A stretch of 56,358 bases of DNA from positions 1-56,358 of the forward strand of contig JAIRKU010000009.1 of the NCBI GenBank assembly GCA_031259945.1, in the 5' to 3' direction. This document shows, one piece after another, positions 2,696 through 56,358 of the stretch; positions within the stretch are counted from its first letter, which is position 1, and every line of letters begins with the position of its first letter. The notes under the pieces were generated by a model. That model had not been told where the DNA came from and did no database searches. It saw only the letters and a list, made by a program, of their open reading frames with translations. Position numbers and translations under genes: made by a program. The DNA comes from Mycoplasmataceae bacterium. Lineage in GTDB: Bacteria > Bacillota_I > Bacilli_A > Mycoplasmatales > Mycoplasmoidaceae.

Positions 2696-4647
2696 TTAGA
2701 AATATTTGTTTTAGTAGTATAAAAAGTTTTAATAATTTTAATTATCTCTAGTAATTCATTAGCATTTAAATAACAAGTTTGAAAGCGCGTTTTTTTATTA
2801 GCAACGGTATCAAAATAATAACCATCACCATTACCGTTGAGTTGTACCCCTTGATATGTATCAAAGATTTTAAGTGATTCGCGTTCAGATTCTAAACGAA
2901 GGATAAAACGAGCGTTAGTTTCATCATAAATTTTTGGCTCAATGGTTTCATTATTAACATTAATTGATAATAAAATTACTTTTACTCCAACTTTACTACC
3001 TTTAGTTAAAATTGAATTCAATAATTGTAAATTTTGTAAACTATTTCGAATTAAATAATCAAACGATGAAATAACTAAAACGAATGTTTTTAATTTGTTG
3101 CTTTCATTGTTTTGATATTTATTAAATTCAATTAAAGTTTTGGCGCCAGCATCTTTAAATTTAGTTTCACGTTCCTCAATATGCTTTAGTAAATCGTGTA
3201 ACTTTATTAAGCAATCTTCTAATTCTATTGCTAATGGATAATGCATATATGGTAAATTATCAAAATACTTTAATGAACGATCGCCCATTGGGCTCAATAT
3301 CATTATTTCCATATCGCTTGGTTTGTTTATGTAAGCTAATGAAATAAGCATGGTTGTTAATAGCATTGCTGCCCCACTACCACGACGGCCGATAATCAGA
3401 ACATTAGGGTGTTTATCAATATTTAGTAATATCGGTTCATTCTCCAAGCCTACACCAACTACCGCTTCATTGGTTTGTATATTACTTACAGAATTAAGTA
3501 TTTGACGAATGGAAATTTTAGAAATTTCTTTGTGCGGAATTTCAAATTTAACGACGTTACCCTTGAAAACAATATTGAAAGTATCAACTTGTAACATATG
3601 CAATAATTCGTTTTGCATTTTTAAAATGTCATCAATTTGACTTTTAGATGCGACTTCAAAACTAATTTCGGCATATTGTGGCATGATAAGCGTTTTACGA
3701 TATGCAGCATCGATACTAATTTTACGAATGAATTTATTAATAATGTGTTGTAATTTTTCAGCTCGGTTTTTATTATTAAAATAATTATCTTGGCTTGTAT
3801 CTGTTAGAAAACTAATTGGTGGAGTTAATTGTTCAAATTTATTGGCTTCCTGTTTAATTTCTACACTATTGTGAATAACAGGGTCAATGTCATGTTTATT
3901 AGGAGATAACTCATCATAAACATTGTTATAAACATTACCGCCTAATAAATGTATTAATCATTTTTTAATCCAATTAACGATTTTGCCATTTTTACGATTG
4001 ATAAAGACAAGAAAGCTACATCCAATGAAAATTAAAGCCACTATTGCTAATAATATTGCTGCAATATATTCTCAAGAAATTGCTAATAATGTAGCAATAA
4101 TTCCTGCATCCAAATATGGTTGACTAGGTCAAATTGTCGGCATAAACGAATGATAAATTTGTGCATCTTTACTTGTAGATCAACTTGTAAAACCAGAAAT
4201 ATAAGTATTTAATGTTACAGATTCATTCACCAATAAATATTTTTGTAAGATTGCTAAAACTAAAATGAATCCAACAATACACAATACAAAACCCAAGATA
4301 AAACGTTTGGTTTTGAATATTTTAATAATTCGTAATCTAAATAGTTTAAAAATAATTCAAACAATTATAAAAGCGTAAATTAAATATTTTAGATTACCAA
4401 AAACAAATTCAAATAAATATGAATCTGGAAAACTACCAATATATGGTACACGTGTAGCAAACAAACAAACCATCACTAACAATAATAGATAGAAACAAAA
4501 CCAAAAACGTCTACGCGTTTTAGTAACTTCTGATGGTAGCACGTTGTCATCGATTATTCCTTGGGGGTTACTTTCTTCTTCAACTCTTACTGATTTACCA
4601 TCATCTTCAACTCTTACTGATTTACCATCATTTAATTTTTCAATCAT
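2692..4647 (-). CDS. FtsK/SpoIIIE-like protein with degenerate ATPase motifs
   Basis: A 651-residue protein (several TGA Trp codons) with about four N-terminal membrane segments (residues 50-230), a linker, and a C-terminal FtsK-type RecA-like motor fold. Family landmarks align, including the helix ending in [13 protein letters not shown] and the [14 protein letters not shown] region. The Walker A position reads GRRGSGAA (420-427), without the catalytic Lys-Ser, and the Walker B position reads [11 protein letters not shown], without Asp-Glu. ATP-driven DNA translocation therefore looks lost. It starts 3 nt after the RNase J-like gene. rnjB and spoIIIE are also near neighbours in Bacillus subtilis, which supports the ancestry. 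A structural or membrane-tethering role is inference. Confidence 0.82.
4577..4630. repeat. Perfect 27-bp tandem duplication in the ftsK-like N-terminus
   Basis: Two identical 27-bp units (4577-4603 and 4604-4630) lie head to tail and encode two near-identical nonapeptides around DGKSVRVE at residues 7-25 of the FtsK-like protein. The length keeps the frame. Perfect identity suggests a recent slippage duplication. Confidence 0.9.
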
Positions 4648-26883: not shown

Positions 26884-26937
26884 ATTACCTTCATTATTCC
26901 ATCGGCGAACATTACCTTCATTATTCCATCGGCGAAC
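26884..26937. repeat. Perfect 27-bp tandem duplication upstream of yloU
   Basis: Two identical 27-bp units (26884-26910 and 26911-26937) lie directly upstream of the yloU promoter core, spanning where a -35 region would be. The second 27-bp perfect tandem duplication in this window; the two units are unrelated in sequence. Confidence 0.92.
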
Positions 26938-28061: not shown

Positions 28062-28800
28062 ACTTATTACAAATATTTACCCAATTAAAAATCAAGCAAC
28101 ATGAGATGAATCTGGTTTTCGCTATTTGGTAGATAAATCTACCGAAGCGACAGGCGTATTTATTTGTTTAGATTTGACTAAGGAAGTAATTAATGCCGCT
28201 CATAAAGCAGAAATTAATTTTATTATTAGCCACCATCCAATATTTTTAAAAAACAAAGAAGCTAAACCAACTAAATATGAACAAGAGATGCTAAAACTAT
28301 TGAAAGAATACAAAATAAGTTTAGCTAGTTATCATACTAATGTTGATAAATCCCCACTAGGGCTAAATATGTATGTAGCCAAACAATTAAATTTGCATCA
28401 AATTAAAAACATTTCTGGTTCTGGTATTGTAACAGGACGAATTAATTTTTCATATAAGCCTAAAGTATTTGCTTCTACTATAAAAAATACATTTGACTTA
28501 GAAAGAATTATTTACACAAGCAAAGACCAAGTACGAAATATCGCAATTTGTGCTGGCAGTGGTTTTCATGAATTAAAGGAAAATCTTGAAAAATTAAAAG
28601 GGACAGATTTATTTGTTACCGGTGATGTTAAATGACACGATTGACAATTTGCCAAACTTCACAACATGAACGTTATGGATGTAGGTCATGATTTGGAAAA
28701 TGTTTTTATTGACATCATTACTGAAATTATCAATACTAATGTAAATTTACTAAAAGTACAAAATATTCGCAATAAACAAGAAATTAAAATTGTAATTTAA
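28039..28800 (+). CDS. Nif3/YqfO-like dinuclear metal-centre protein
   Basis: A 253-residue short-form Nif3 protein. Metal ligands are visible in IISHHPIF (about 72-79), SYHTNVDKSPLGLN (about 97-110) and the C-terminal DVGHDLEN. The ACT-like insert of longer homologues is absent. The biochemical role of the family is unsettled; GTP cyclohydrolase-like folds are known. It is coupled to trmK, and its stop overlaps that of the convergent PPC-domain gene by 4 nt. Confidence 0.9.
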
Positions 28801-29219
28801 AGATTTAATAGATTAAGACCCGTCTCTTGGTCCAAAGATCGTGATATTTTTTTATTAGTCTTTACCAAGATTAATTCAGCGGTTACAGAAATAACGGCTT
28901 TATTTAAATGACCGCCCTTAACAATTAGCGATTTATCGCCAACATTAATGTGAACATGCAAGTAAGGTTTTTCATCTAATGAAGAAATATTGCCTATTAA
29001 ACTAGTAATTTCATAATCACCTTTTAGTGCATGTGAAATATATTTTTTAGTTTTATCGTTAAAAATTCCAATAGTTAAGTCATTAGTAGCACCCAAACCT
29101 AAGAAATATCCAGATTTTATTTTCTGTTGTGTACAAAACATTTGGATTGATTTAACTATCTCATCCCCTCGTTCTAATTTAATGCAATATTTATTTCTTG
29201 TAATTTTTATGAATTTCAT
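28797..29219 (-). CDS. PPC-domain (DUF296) DNA-binding-like protein
   Basis: A 140-residue protein consisting of a single PPC domain: GDEIVKSIQMFCTQQKIKSGYFLGLGA, then the metal-binding-like HVHINVGD (about 106) and GGHLNKAVIS. In plants the domain is paired with AT-hooks; bacterial versions stand alone and are trimeric. Function in mollicutes is unknown, possibly nucleoid-related or enzymatic. It is driven by the minus-strand side of a palindromic -10 box. Confidence 0.82.
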   Translation of the reverse strand: MKFIKITRNKYCIKLERGDEIVKSIQMFCTQQKIKSGYFLGLGATNDLTIGIFNDKTKKYISHALKGDYEITSLIGNISSLDEKPYLHVHINVGDKSLIVKGGHLNKAVISVTAELILVKTNKKISRSLDQETGLNLLNL

Positions 29220-29247
29220 AGTTAATTATTTTTTATTTTCCAAACCT

Positions 29248-29283
29248 ATTATATAATTAGCAAGCATTTAAATTCTTAAATGC
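29248..29283. promoter_or_regulatory. Bidirectional -10 palindrome and rpsF leader hairpin
   Basis: ATTATATAAT (29248-29257) gives TATAAT on both strands between the divergent PPC-domain gene and rpsF. On the rpsF side the leader at once folds GCATTTAA/TTAAATGC (29264-29271 with 29276-29283), followed by a CCG near 29293. S6:S18-binding leaders with a CCG element are known upstream of rpsF operons, so this may be the mollicute equivalent (inference). Confidence 0.5.
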
Positions 29284-29337
29284 ATTCTTTGTCCGAATTT
29301 AGTAAGACAATACCCATAAGGAGCATTAAATAAATAT

Positions 29338-52385: not shown

Positions 52386-52547
52386 CTTTACTCCTTGGTT
52401 ATTTTGTTGCCTATATTCTATAAACTAAAAAAAAGAAAATTTCTTTCGGAATTTTTTTTGTTTTTATTTTCATTAAATTTTAATATTAACTATTCTCTTC
52501 ACATTTCAAAGATGCGTTTATAATCAACAAAGAATTTAAAAATAATT

Positions 52548-53499
52548 ATGTCGCTTACTAAAAAAAACTAAAATAGGAATTAATCCATTATGAGTAGGCA
52601 TCGGTTTTCTTTTTTTTGCAGTCGTTTGTTTACTAATAGGATCATTTTGAGACTTTCAAATTAGTAAGAGTATAGCTGGACTAGACTCTACTAAATGAAG
52701 TCAATCTTTTGGCAATCGCTTTAGTTTTATACCGGGTACAATCGGTTCTGTCTTAGCAGCGTTTGTTGGTTCGTGTCTTATATTGTCACAACCACATCGA
52801 TTTGTAAAAATATCTTATAAACGAATCTATTTAGTGTTGGCTTATTTGCTAATTGGCGCTTTAGTTTGATTTCAATGTTATGATGGTATGATTCGTGAAT
52901 TTTTTTATTCTTTTAATCTAAACACTAACATGCCTTCTAATAAACCTACTGGTGATTTTGGTGTTTTGTATGCATTTGCTGCAGCAATATCATTGATGGT
53001 GCTTAGCTCTCTTCTTATTCATTTTAAATTAGCGCGATATAGAGGGCTATTATTTAAATGAGCTCTTTATGCTCTTTTAACTATTGGAATTCAATGGTTA
53101 ATTATTGTTACATGTAAAAATAATTTACCACGAGAAAGATTTTTACATATCAATGGTGATGAAAGCAAATTTAAACCATGATATTCATTGATATGAAATA
53201 AATCTGATGGTAGCGGCTTTAGTTATTCTTCTTTTCCAAGCGGACACACCAATTGAGCTATTACTTTGATATTGTTGTATCCATTGGTTTATTCAACGGC
53301 ACCTAAAAAACAATGATTACAAATCGTAACAATTGGTTTTATCGCTGTAATTGTAGTGTTAACAATGTTCGCTAGAATTCAATCAGCTTATCATTACTTA
53401 AGCGATACCGCTATGTCTGTCTTTGTTGGCGCTATTTGCAGCAGTTCTATTTATCTTTGCTTTCACAAGTGGGTAAAATTTAATAATTCTAATAGTTAA
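52548..53499 (+). CDS. PAP2-family phosphatase, out of frame at an A8 tract
   Basis: A membrane protein of about 315 residues with the three PAP2/phosphatidate phosphatase motifs: KNNLPRERF, SSFPSGHTNW (catalytic His), and RIQSAYHYLSDT (catalytic His and Asp). No ATG, GTG or TTG opens this frame near the N-terminus. The ATG at 52548 (MSLTKK...) lies in another frame and hits a stop after seven codons. Removing one A from the A8 run at 52560-52567 would join them into MSLTKKTKIGINPLWVG. TATAAT at about 52520 lies upstream. Phase variation, transcriptional slippage and sequencing error are all possible. Likely substrates are phosphatidate or related lipids. Confidence 0.75.
52560..52567 (+). 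repeat. A8 homopolymer causing the PAP2 frameshift
   Basis: Eight A residues just after the sixth base of codon 4 of the PAP2 gene. A7 or A10 would give an intact frame from the ATG; A8 does not. Placement five codons from the start is the classic position of an on/off contingency tract. Confidence 0.75.
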
Positions 53500-53581
53500 A
53501 TAACATTGTTTCATACATTAATGTTCGTTTAATTTCTGCCCAGACTTTTCAACAATTATTAAGAAAAATAGAAAAATTATT

Positions 53582-53607
53582 TTTTCATCAATATTTGCTT
53601 GACAAAT
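53582..53607 (+). repeat. Left copy of 26-bp direct repeat shared with the rrn promoter
   Basis: A 26-bp stretch, including TTGACA at 53599-53604, is identical to 56176-56201 in the 16S rRNA promoter. The flanking bases differ on both sides. This copy lies 42 nt upstream of the HNH gene and may supply part of its promoter. Confidence 0.9.
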
Positions 53608-53649
53608 CCTCGGTCGGCCAAATTGAATAATTTATAGTATACTTTTATC

Positions 53650-54099
53650 ATGAAAGCAATTTACGAATATAAGCTAAAAAATGGTGAATTGTATCCACAA
53701 ATGCTACCTTTTTGTTTACATGGAAAAGCACCTAGAACTTGAATGGGCGATAAAAAATGAAAAGAACTGTCGTTAAAAACTAGAGAAAAAAGAAAATGTA
53801 TATGTTGTGGTTATTCAGGTGAACTTAAAGAATTTGATTGTCATGAGGCTTATAGATTTATATACGATGACGTAACGAATATTGTTGATGTTGAATTGAT
53901 TGATTTATACTGCATCTGTAAAAAATGTCACAATGCTATCCATATAGGGCGTGCAAGAGTAATAGGAACAGAACACGAAGCGATAGAACAAATGCAAAAA
54001 GTTAATGAAACAAATTTTGTGATTAGACAAAATGATATATTTAACATTATAGAAACGGCTAAATTAGGTACAATCAAAATCAATTTGACTGAATGTTAA
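53650..54099 (+). CDS. HNH-type zinc-finger nuclease-like protein
   Basis: A 149-residue protein with two CxxC-type knuckles: CICCGYS (about 56-62) and CICKKCH (about 92-98). Between them is a DCHEAYRF segment, and a IHIGRA motif follows. The order C-x2-C ... CHE ... C-x2-C-H ... H is that of small HNH endonucleases common in phages and mobile elements. TATACT lies 6 nt before the ATG, so the message may be leaderless. Position between a duplicated rrn promoter fragment and a broken 16S fragment suggests an acquired gene. Nuclease activity is inferred. Confidence 0.75.
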
Positions 54100-54122
54100 C
54101 ATTATCAATTGGGTAATGTTAA
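54096..54122 (+). terminator. Possible 3' hairpin of the HNH gene
   Basis: TTAACATTA (54096-54104) pairs perfectly with TAATGTTAA (54114-54122) around a 9-nt loop, overlapping the HNH stop codon. No clear T-run follows, so termination is uncertain. Confidence 0.4.
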
Positions 54123-54180
54123 TCATTGGGATTTCTTTGATGTACACGATTTCTGTGTAGTTAAATTACTTTAATTCCGA

Positions 54181-54353
54181 AGAAATGAGGTGACCCCCCC
54201 ACGTTCTCGTAGGGGTACCTTGTTACGACTTAACCCCAATCACCGTTTCCTACCCTAGACGTCCGCCACCTTACGGTTAACAAAACGGTTTTAGGTATTA
54301 ACGGCTCTTATAGTTTAAAGGGCGGTATGTACAAGACCCAAGAACTATTCAGC
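54181..54353 (-). pseudogene. Truncated, diverged 3' end of 16S rRNA, inverted
   Basis: Read on the minus strand, this is the last 170 or so bases of 16S rRNA: CTTGTACATACCGCCC (decoding-centre region), GTCGTAACAAGGTACCCC, a helix 45 region and a terminal CACCTCATTTCT. It differs from a working 16S at normally invariant places: TACATACC for TACACACC, loss of bases in GGGGTCACC, and CCTCA for the anti-Shine-Dalgarno CCTCC. Upstream of the fragment the homology stops and another gene's promoter begins. It is a remnant, not a functional gene. The true 16S gene starts at about 56286 on the opposite strand. Confidence 0.9.
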
Positions 54354-54368
54354 ACAATTCAATGCATA

Positions 54369-54406
54369 ATATCCGATTTTTTGCATTTTTGCATTTTTTC
54401 GGATAT
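54369..54406 (+). promoter_or_regulatory. Inverted repeat upstream of the AAA ATPase gene
   Basis: ATATCCGA (54369-54376) and TCGGATAT (54399-54406) form an 8-bp inverted repeat enclosing two TTTGCATTT direct repeats, 11 nt before the ATPase ATG. It could be an operator or an RNA hairpin masking the start. No Shine-Dalgarno is seen. Confidence 0.45.
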
Positions 54407-54416
54407 ATTATTAATT

Positions 54417-55634
54417 ATGAACGAAATAATTAGATATGAATATCTTAGCGAATTAGAATTACTAAAAAACAAACATTTTATAAAAGTTTTGACAGGAATT
54501 CGTAGATCTGGTAAATCTACTATCTTGAATCAATTTAAAAAAATTTTAATTAAAAAATACAATGTCCCAATAAATAATATTCAAATTTATGATTTTAATG
54601 ATAAACGATTACTCACACATAATTGAAAATCGTTATTGAACATAATGATGGACAAAAGTTCACATAGCGAAATTAATTATGTATTTCTTGATGAAATTCA
54701 AGAAATAAAAGATTTTGAAAAATGCATAATCACATTATTTGAAAATAAACAATTTAAATATGATATTTACATAACGGGTTCTAATTCAAAAATGTTTTCG
54801 GAAAAACTTGCAACGCTATTTACTGGGCGAAGTGCACCCATTAATGTATTTCCGATATCGTTCAAACTATTTCATGAACAATTGAATAATGAATATTCAA
54901 ATAATAGCCTTTTTAATAAATATTTAAAATATGGAGGATTAGGAATAATCGTCCCAAATTATGATGAAGAAAATTTAATTCAAAAAACTTTGAAGTGAGT
55001 TTTTGACGATACCATTAATAAAGATGTTAAAACAAGACATAGATTTCAAAACATAGATATTTTGGACAAAGTTATTAATTTTGTATATGAGCATATCGGT
55101 AAGAAGATTAATGCCACAAAAATTGAAAATTACCTAAAATCACAAAAAGAACCAAAATTAACGGATAAGACAATTTCAAAATATTTAACATGAATATGTG
55201 AGTCGTTGGTCTTGCATAAAATTAAATATTATGATGTAAAAGGTAAAAGGATTTTTAAAACAAAAGTTAAATATTATGCTGGTGACCTGGGACTTCTAAG
55301 CAGAATATTATCTTTCGATACCACCAAATTATTAAGTTATCGTCTAGAGAATTTAGTTTATTTGGAGCTTAGACAAAGAGGTTATGAAATCTATACGTTT
55401 GAAGATCGTTACGAACGCGAGATAGATTTCATTGCTAAAAAAGACAATGAAATTGTTTACTATCAAGTGACTAAATCGCTTAATGAAAATAATTATGAGC
55501 GCGAATCAAGAGTGTTATTAGATAGAAAAGATGGCTTTGAAAAAATCATTTTGACTTTAGAAAATGAGTCTAGAAACAATGATGGTATTAAAATAATTAA
55601 CATTGTAGATTGGCTATTGGGCACAAAAAAATAA
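54417..55634 (+). CDS. AAA ATPase with DUF4143 (restriction-nuclease-like) C-terminus
   Basis: A 405-residue protein: AAA_14 domain with Walker A GIRRSGKST (about 23-31) and Walker B YVFLDEIQE (about 82-90), sensor-like YITGSNS, then a C-terminal DUF4143 domain with YRLENLVYLELRQRGYEIYTF and EREIDFIAK ... YYQVTKS (about 325-365). The latter E...D...QxxK set looks like a PD-(D/E)XK core. Such ATPases are widespread accessory genes in bacteria and archaea with unclear, possibly nucleic-acid-related or toxin-antitoxin-like roles. ATG 54417 is chosen; upstream codons run into the 16S remnant. Four TGA Trp codons. Confidence 0.85.
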
Positions 55635-55635
55635 G

Positions 55636-55953
55636 TTAGAGTGTGCTTTCGCCGTATAAACAATTTACAGCAATGTATAAATATTTTTCAAATTCAATGA
55701 ATGAATTTATTTCGCTAGAATTACAACTTGGAAACTTATGCCTTAGAAGACTTCTCCTTAACTTATCTTTCCTTTCATGAAAAATAACAAAGTCACGCCC
55801 ATCTAATCAATTTTTGAGTCGAGCTTTATGAGAATTTATAATTCCATCTTTGCTAATTACTTTGATTGGAAAATTACTTTCTAAATTTGCTAAATAGATT
55901 GTTGTTTTTAAATCTTCTCAATATTCGTATTTTAAATTTTGTGTTATTCTCAT
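55636..55953 (-). CDS. Orphan protein, 105 aa
   Basis: A minus-strand frame starting MRITQNLKYEYWEDL and ending at TAA 1 nt from the ATPase stop. It uses two TGA Trp codons, contains a dense basic patch (HERKDKLRRSLLRHK) and is mostly alpha/beta-like. No family recognised and no Shine-Dalgarno seen. The exact tail-to-tail fit with the ATPase gene supports that it is real. Basic character would suit nucleic-acid binding, but this is speculation. Confidence 0.6.
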
Positions 55954-56150
55954 AAATTAGCATTTAGACTGGCGAATAATTGTTATTAATCATCATAAGT
56001 TATCTATTTGGTAGACACAAACAGAACATATTTAGTTTGAGAGGACCAAACCTGAGATTTTAAGATAATTTAGTCATACGTTTTTCATAGTTAGAAGAAA
56101 TAATTGTATTGAAAATTCGTTCATAGTTGTTTCTGGTAAGTAAAACTCGG

Positions 56151-56166
56151 TATTGTTATAACAATA
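56151..56166. promoter_or_regulatory. 16-bp perfect palindrome upstream of the rrn promoter
   Basis: TATTGTTATAACAATA is self-complementary over all 16 bases and ends 26 nt before the rrn -35 box. Position fits an activator or repressor site, or an end mark of the adjacent element. Confidence 0.5.
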
Positions 56167-56175
56167 TTTTGACAA

Positions 56176-56201
56176 TTTTCATCAATATTTGCTTGACAAA
56201 T
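56176..56201 (+). repeat. Right copy of the 26-bp direct repeat (rrn promoter)
   Basis: Identical to 53582-53607, same orientation. It contains the rrn -35 box (TTGACA 56193-56198). The two copies bracket the HNH / 16S remnant / ATPase / orphan block. Confidence 0.9.
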
Positions 56202-56222
56202 ATATATAGTTAACTATATAAT
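56193..56222 (+). promoter_or_regulatory. 16S rRNA operon promoter
   Basis: TTGACA (56193-56198) and TATAAT (56217-56222) with an 18-nt AT-rich spacer: the only near-consensus -35/-10 pair noticed in the window, fitting strong rRNA expression. The start would be near 56229, giving a leader of about 55 nt. Confidence 0.85.
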
Positions 56223-56285
56223 TTGATTCGCTACTCACTAAAAGTGGGTAGTGCAAGTTCTTTGAAAACTAAATAGAATCCGTCA

Positions 56286-56358
56286 ATTTTTAAGAGTTTG
56301 ATCCTGGCTCAGGATTAACGCTAGCGGTATGCCTAATACATGCAAGTCGAGCGGCCAG
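56286..56358 (+). rRNA. rrs: 16S ribosomal RNA, 5' end (cut by the window edge)
   Basis: The sequence AAGAGTTTGATCCTGGCTCA and the later CATGCAAGTCGAGCG are the universal start of bacterial 16S rRNA. CTAGCGGTATGCCTAATA follows the pattern seen in mollicutes. The exact mature 5' end is uncertain by a few bases. Confidence 0.97.

Follow-up and report, generated by a model that had tools for sequence, protein, structure and literature searches.

A 2,568-bp block upstream of the 16S rRNA gene of this Mycoplasmataceae genome is probably (at roughly 0.6) a small defence-type cassette inserted in the promoter of the rRNA operon (rrn), and would be one instance of a genus-wide integration of DNA circles into rrn. 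The window, i.e. the whole stretch of 56,358 nucleotides that was analysed, is one complete contig that stops 73 nt into the 16S rRNA gene, the remaining operon lying beyond the contig end. It belongs to a genome (G000) of 848 kb in 28 contigs that uses genetic code table 4, and G000 is itself among the 36 genomes of one genus that made up the comparison set. All genomes compared are short-read metagenome assemblies; the genus relatives carry the name Mycoplasmataceae bacterium and are, as we presume from their isolate naming, termite-gut bins.

Content of the block

The features of the region are listed below with window coordinates and strand.

53582..53607 (+): copy 1 of the 26-bp repeat, exact; -35 half of the presumed original rrn promoter, on the side of the PAP2 gene
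53608..56175 (no strand): proposed insert, 2,568 bp between the copies; not present in the corresponding interval of G033 or G019, and joining its flanks gives a G033-like promoter
53650..54099 (+): HNH endonuclease, 149 aa (code 4); phrog_5200, E 1.2e-16; CxxC/CxxCH and DCHE motifs
54092..54351 (-): decayed 16S nt 1337-1507 with ~93 nt of 16S trailer; Rfam RF00177, 82 bits
54366..54408 (no strand): inverted repeat ATATCCGA...TCGGATAT directly upstream of the ATPase gene, read in the sequence; may be an operator
54417..55634 (+): AAA_14/DUF4143 ATPase, 405 aa, PDC-S01 defence candidate; AAA_14 2.1e-27, DUF4143 5.9e-17
55636..55953 (-): orphan ORF, 105 aa; no family match
56176..56201 (+): copy 2 of the 26-bp repeat, exact; contains the rrn -35 box that is in use
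56286..56358 (+): 5' end of the intact 16S rRNA gene, which the end of the contig truncates; Rfam 55 bits, 73/73 identical to G033

An earlier note, made from the letters alone, had described an HNH-like nuclease, an inverted 16S remnant, an AAA/DUF4143 ATPase and a 105-aa orphan between two identical 26-bp repeats that each hold the rrn -35 box, and the profile searches and repeat analysis bore out each of these assignments. The HNH protein combines a profile match with Cys-pair and His motifs in its translation; it was seen by phrog_5200 alone, with no match in Pfam or NCBIfam, and single-sequence structure prediction (pLDDT 32) gave no usable model. The stop codon of its gene sits in the antisense of the 16S trailer, the gene and trailer overlapping. 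The 16S piece comprises the last 171 nt of 16S and ~93 nt of trailer, and over 54092-54351 it is identical to the 16S and trailer of species G006 at 237 of 260 positions (91%). The ATPase matches the PADLOC profile PDC-S01 over its full length (E 8.9e-111; residues 3-402 on positions 10-408 of 412), which fits well with the defence function that the earlier note had raised; the protein is a computed defence candidate with a putative anti-phage role. The orphan has no relative among the 36 genus genomes. The ORFs of the block read TGA as Trp.

No transposase was found among the ORFs of 53582-56201 or by protein-family profiles, no integrase was found in the block by such profiles, and the 25 longest inverted pairs include none at the block ends that could serve as terminal inverted repeats. 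Hence, a classical transposon is unlikely.

Promoter repeats and the empty site

The 26-mer occurs at the two borders of the block and nowhere else in the 848-kb genome. Its presence at many unrelated promoters, which would have spoken against an insertion at this site, was looked for and not seen. In dinucleotide-shuffled versions of 52500-56358 the longest exact repeat was 17 bp (200 trials). The only other exact repeats of at least 20 bp in the window, at 4577-4612 and 26884-26919, are short tandem duplications with a 27-bp period. Both copies include TTGACA; a TATAAT box at promoter spacing is found with copy 2 only, where the order TTGACA, 18 nt, TATAAT, leader and 16S forms the only visible 16S promoter, and copy 1 has no good -10 box. 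Sequence of the rRNA operon is thus present both at the block borders, as copies of 26 bp of the rrn promoter, and inside the block, as the 16S 3' piece.

In the relatives G033 (locus L056) and G019 (L060), mtaB is followed by a lipoprotein gene in reverse orientation, ~225 bp and 16S, with neither the block nor a PAP2 gene. The window shares the mtaB - lipoprotein - 16S arrangement, and since only ~225 bp separates the lipoprotein gene from rrn in the two relatives, the site is empty there. The window further includes a PAP2-family phosphatase gene (52560-53499) between the lipoprotein gene and copy 1, outside the bracketed block; it is absent from the lipoprotein-rrn interval in G033 and G019 and was therefore gained or lost separately.

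The 99 nt up to and including the -35 box of copy 1 align with the rrn upstream region of G033 with a score of 38, which was matched by 2 of 2252 sliding windows of the analysed stretch (top 0.1%), whereas the 99 nt at copy 2 score 20, a value reached by 35% of windows. When the flanks are joined at one 26-mer, the score against G033 is 115, as compared with 94 for the present sequence, and the joined promoter aligns with that of G033 through the upstream element, -35, -10 and leader. The same comparison against G019 showed no difference (84 and 84). Judged by these alignments, the native rrn upstream sequence is that on the copy 1 side. As G033-like upstream sequence adjoins copy 1 and not copy 2, the block most likely entered between the -35 and -10 boxes, and the 26-bp duplication regenerated the promoter: the 26 bp that lead up to and include the -35 box would have been duplicated, copy 2 completing the 16S promoter and copy 1 being left as a stub. 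A flanking direct repeat together with an empty site in relatives is the pattern of a target-site duplication, which at 26 bp is unusually long. The suggestion in the earlier note of a mobile element that duplicated its target at the rrn promoter is thus supported by the empty sites and join scores as regards insertion with duplication, and finds no support as regards a classical transposon.

rRNA gene pieces adjoining other genes in the genus

The genus genomes were queried with 16S, 23S and 5S, and ORFs were mapped around the pieces found. In 8 of the 36 genomes, other genes are adjoined by truncated rRNA pieces or by additional copies of 5S: 16S pieces in G000, G006, G021, G023, G024 and G027, 23S pieces in G018 and G006, and 5S arrays in G000, G006, G023 and G033. 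The arrangements are as follows, where a slash separates neighbours and C denotes a contig.

G023:C10: unknown 640-aa gene / 16S piece / 16S piece / Fic / 16S piece / PDC-S01 ATPase / 16S piece
G023:C11: AbiH at one end; PIF1 helicase, then 16S nt 1249-1507 with trailer, at the other
G023:C3: cytosine and adenine DNA methyltransferases, KAP NTPase / 16S piece with trailer / bSEFIR / 16S piece
G006:C7: HsdR / 16S piece / ATPase
G006:C29: GHKL ATPase / 16S piece with trailer
G024:C91: Mrr / 16S piece
G024:C95: trailer with HsdR/HsdM
G021: Hhe-like helicase-nuclease / 16S piece / Fic remnant
G027: ATPase / 16S piece
G018:C23 and G006:C25: 23S 5' pieces adjoining ATPases
G000, G033, G023 and G006: 5S copies alternating with genes, in G000 those for PIN and ASCH proteins
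G033, one 89-kb contig: 16S - RelB/PIN - 23S with intron - 5S - ORFs - 5S - ORF - 5S

Four contigs of G023, C7 (main 16S), C10, C11 and C3, are linked by 119-mers within 16S or the 16S trailer, a pattern that fits a single long array in the operon. The pieces often retain the real 16S 3' end and the processing trailer, and in most cases their nearest match is 16S from the same genome or subclade. Their starts scatter from nt 1143 to 1533, with starts near 1200 and 1249 recurring in some pieces only; a single attachment site in 16S was rejected on account of this scatter, and with boundaries so variable and few starts recurring the mechanism cannot be read from them. As a control, 148 genomes of the order were searched, and outside the genus all 16S 3' matches listed, which extended down to about 1e-120, were essentially full length, for which reason such pieces were not regarded as an ordinary feature of the order.

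What sets the block in the window apart from the other cassettes is its place upstream of 16S, together with a very short repeat and an inverted piece. As that piece is inverted, unlike most others, it must have been rearranged at least once. In G013, a PDC-S01 ATPase, an HNH gene and a type I restriction system lie upstream of 16S too. As to co-occurrence of the block's proteins beside rrn loci, which the earlier note had proposed as a check, ATPases adjoin rRNA pieces in several genomes, most other rrn cassettes lack an HNH gene, and the orphan has no relative in the genus genomes.

Several further observations concern the same operons. The RelB/PIN toxin-antitoxin pair of G033:C4 (L056 12469-13199) is in reverse orientation between 16S and 23S. 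In G006:C28, an EngB-like GTPase frame follows soon after the 16S trailer (L059 11653-11880) and is possibly expressed from the rRNA promoter. Contigs C10, C16 and C27 of G010 have one 141-bp 5S sequence in common at their ends, giving 5S two different surroundings, which may reflect two operons, an array or a mixed population. The 23S of G000:C3 (~28,508-29,297; L007 8509-9298) has a group I intron-like insertion of ~790 nt between ACGGUCCUA and AGGUAGCGA (Rfam Intron_gpI 37.5 bits, under the cut-off of 50). Insertions at the same site are present in 23S of G033 and G023, and that of G023 encodes a LAGLIDADG protein (PF00961, 3.7e-14).

Predicted defence genes among the neighbours

PADLOC matches at 1e-30 or better were obtained for 17 of 39 genes beside pieces and for at most 2 of 46 other window genes (Fisher p 1.4e-5). 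The 39-gene set took in one G013 gene that was first found via the ATPase, and without it p is 2.9e-5; with all ten PDC-S01 ATPases counted once, p is 0.011. At the looser level of 1e-10 the contrast is weaker (19 of 39 versus at most 11 of 46, p 0.02). About half of the genes bounded by rRNA pieces belong to predicted anti-phage types, namely PDC-S01, type I, II and IV restriction, AbiH, bSEFIR, Hhe-like and KAP, and Pfam indicates AbiH, Fic and PIN/RelB as further defence-type genes. Cassette genes with no defence character include those for CutC, an aquaporin, lipoproteins and several unknowns.

Among 80 ATPase loci from named genomes, two are near rRNA, one at a 16S 5' end and the other near a full 23S; hence the association is not carried by the ATPase itself. 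G004, G008 and G016 each have at least 28-30 matches to PDC-S01-type AAA_14/DUF4143 ATPases per genome of 0.9-1.3 Mb, an amplification of this gene type. Most of these ATPases are not beside rRNA, and this abundance elsewhere led to rejection of the ATPase as an agent that targets rRNA genes.

A circle-like contig

Contig C23 of G018 (6,172 bp) has an identical 119 bp, the assembly k-mer size, at both ends, and with this overlap it closes into a 6,053-bp circle. A free circle would give such contig ends, and so would a tandem repeat or a copy integrated between repeats. It carries genes for type II methyltransferases, an HNH-type restriction gene and PDC-S01 ATPases, together with 23S nt 2-254 preceded by a promoter-like leader. 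This 23S piece is 92% identical to the 23S of G003, as compared with 81% over the full length for the 23S of G018 itself, and is therefore probably foreign by sequence similarity. Its ATPase and 23S piece share 95% identity over 1.45 kb with those of G006:C25, the 117-nt 23S part being 100% identical. One cassette with its 23S piece is shared between two species, G018 and G006, which is what would be expected of circles that bear an rRNA piece, pass from one species to another and become integrated through one homologous crossover. A circle-like contig with an rRNA piece was seen in G018, and none was seen for the block in the window.

Proposed mechanism and alternative explanations

In the proposed mechanism, DNA circles would carry a defence gene and a piece of rRNA operon sequence, and would integrate in rrn by a single homologous (Campbell-type) crossover that leaves an intact rRNA gene on one side and a truncated rRNA piece on the other. 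Repeated integration would turn the operon into a defence island with 16S 3' ends, 23S 5' ends and 5S copies as separators. Homologous recombination is the putative mechanism, and defence activity of the cassettes is predicted from gene families. The block in the window would have entered by the same circle route with only 26 bp of homology; as 26 bp is short for RecA-dependent recombination, it could have entered by another route. The full generalisation, that small circles with anti-phage genes and an rRNA stretch dock at the rRNA operon by homologous recombination, cross species and build arrays co-transcribed with rRNA, is put forward tentatively, at a little under even odds.

An alternative is a conventional mobile element, either a transposon or an island dependent on an integrase, possibly acting in trans, with the 26 bp as target or att duplication. 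The exact flanking repeats, the empty site in relatives and the HNH nuclease gene within the block agree with it, and tyrosine recombinases often have att cores of 15-50 bp. However, the block has no transposase, integrase or terminal inverted repeats, 26 bp exceeds the usual transposon duplication, and other cassettes of the genus have borders of variable position and length. This explanation is therefore considered unlikely. A phage origin of the block was rejected, since viral contigs contained neither the 26-mer nor a relative of the HNH protein; in phages the HNH protein gave weak matches only, in two phages.

The other reading in the earlier note, in which the block is the scar of a rearranged second rrn operon, is improbable. 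Inversion and deletion would have reshaped such an operon, with genes drifting into it. This reading would place a promoter fragment, an inverted 16S 3' end and a trailer within one block, as is observed. Yet the homology at copy 1 is limited to 26 identical bases with an abrupt end, in contrast to a 16S piece that is 91% intact, no 5' 16S piece or 23S piece is found in the block, and a scar leaves unexplained the many 16S, 23S and 5S pieces that flank defence genes in related genomes.

Homing driven by the HNH protein, which would cut the rrn promoter of a cassette-free genome so that repair copies the block in, has in its favour the gene inside the block and the occurrence in the genus of intron endonucleases that target rRNA genes, such as the LAGLIDADG gene in the 23S intron of G023. 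It would leave no 26-bp direct repeat, and an HNH gene is missing from most other rrn cassettes, on which ground the protein was also rejected as a general driver; homing is quite improbable here. Joining of metagenome contigs through conserved rRNA stretches, to which the end of the window contig inside 16S and the joins of G023 contigs through 119-mers inside 16S might point, is highly improbable, given that the two 26-mers lie within the contig and are much shorter than the k of 119-141 of related assemblies, that the ORFs use TGA as Trp, and that a mis-join would not yield the many contig-internal pieces truncated on both sides and 80-94% identical to the true 16S.

As rRNA genes are among the most conserved shared DNA, docking there would let defence genes cross species with no recombinase of their own, and as rRNA genes are always strongly transcribed, the docked genes would be expressed at once. 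If this is true, a fragment of an rRNA gene in a draft genome can be a sign of mobile defence genes and not noise.

Comparison with known systems

Of the cases found, the rrn-nqrF plasticity zone of Chlamydia suis comes closest; there, vectors integrate whole beside rrn and the targeted gene is undisrupted (PMC10715202). The likeness lies in integration beside rrn in a host-dependent bacterium; integration in C. suis uses inv homology arms of at least 1 kb and not rRNA sequence, and there are no defence arrays (PMC10715202).

Integron cassettes are likewise small tandem gene cassettes with a short structured separator, but here neither an integron integrase nor attC was seen, and the separators are rRNA fragments. 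Islands that tyrosine recombinases insert at tRNA and tmRNA genes also have a structural RNA gene as landing place, keep the intact gene and leave a truncated copy at the far border. The present case differs in that the gene is for rRNA, no integrase was seen, the pieces range from 26 to ~490 bp, the borders are variable and the arrays have many cassettes.

Chromosomal defence islands are similarly dense clusters of unrelated anti-phage genes (PDC-S01, RM, AbiH, bSEFIR, Mrr, KAP), whereas the clusters described here lie in and around the rRNA operon with rRNA gene pieces as separators. PDC-S01 itself, which the window ATPase matches in full, is not beside rRNA in most genomes. In the literature searched, which took in few subscription papers and no preprints, no account of defence cassettes bounded by rRNA was found. 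The rRNA-bounded defence cassettes are related to two known kinds, gene-targeted islands and defence islands; if the proposed mechanism is true, they would represent a route to defence islands unlike that of tRNA-targeting islands, in bacteria with very small genomes.
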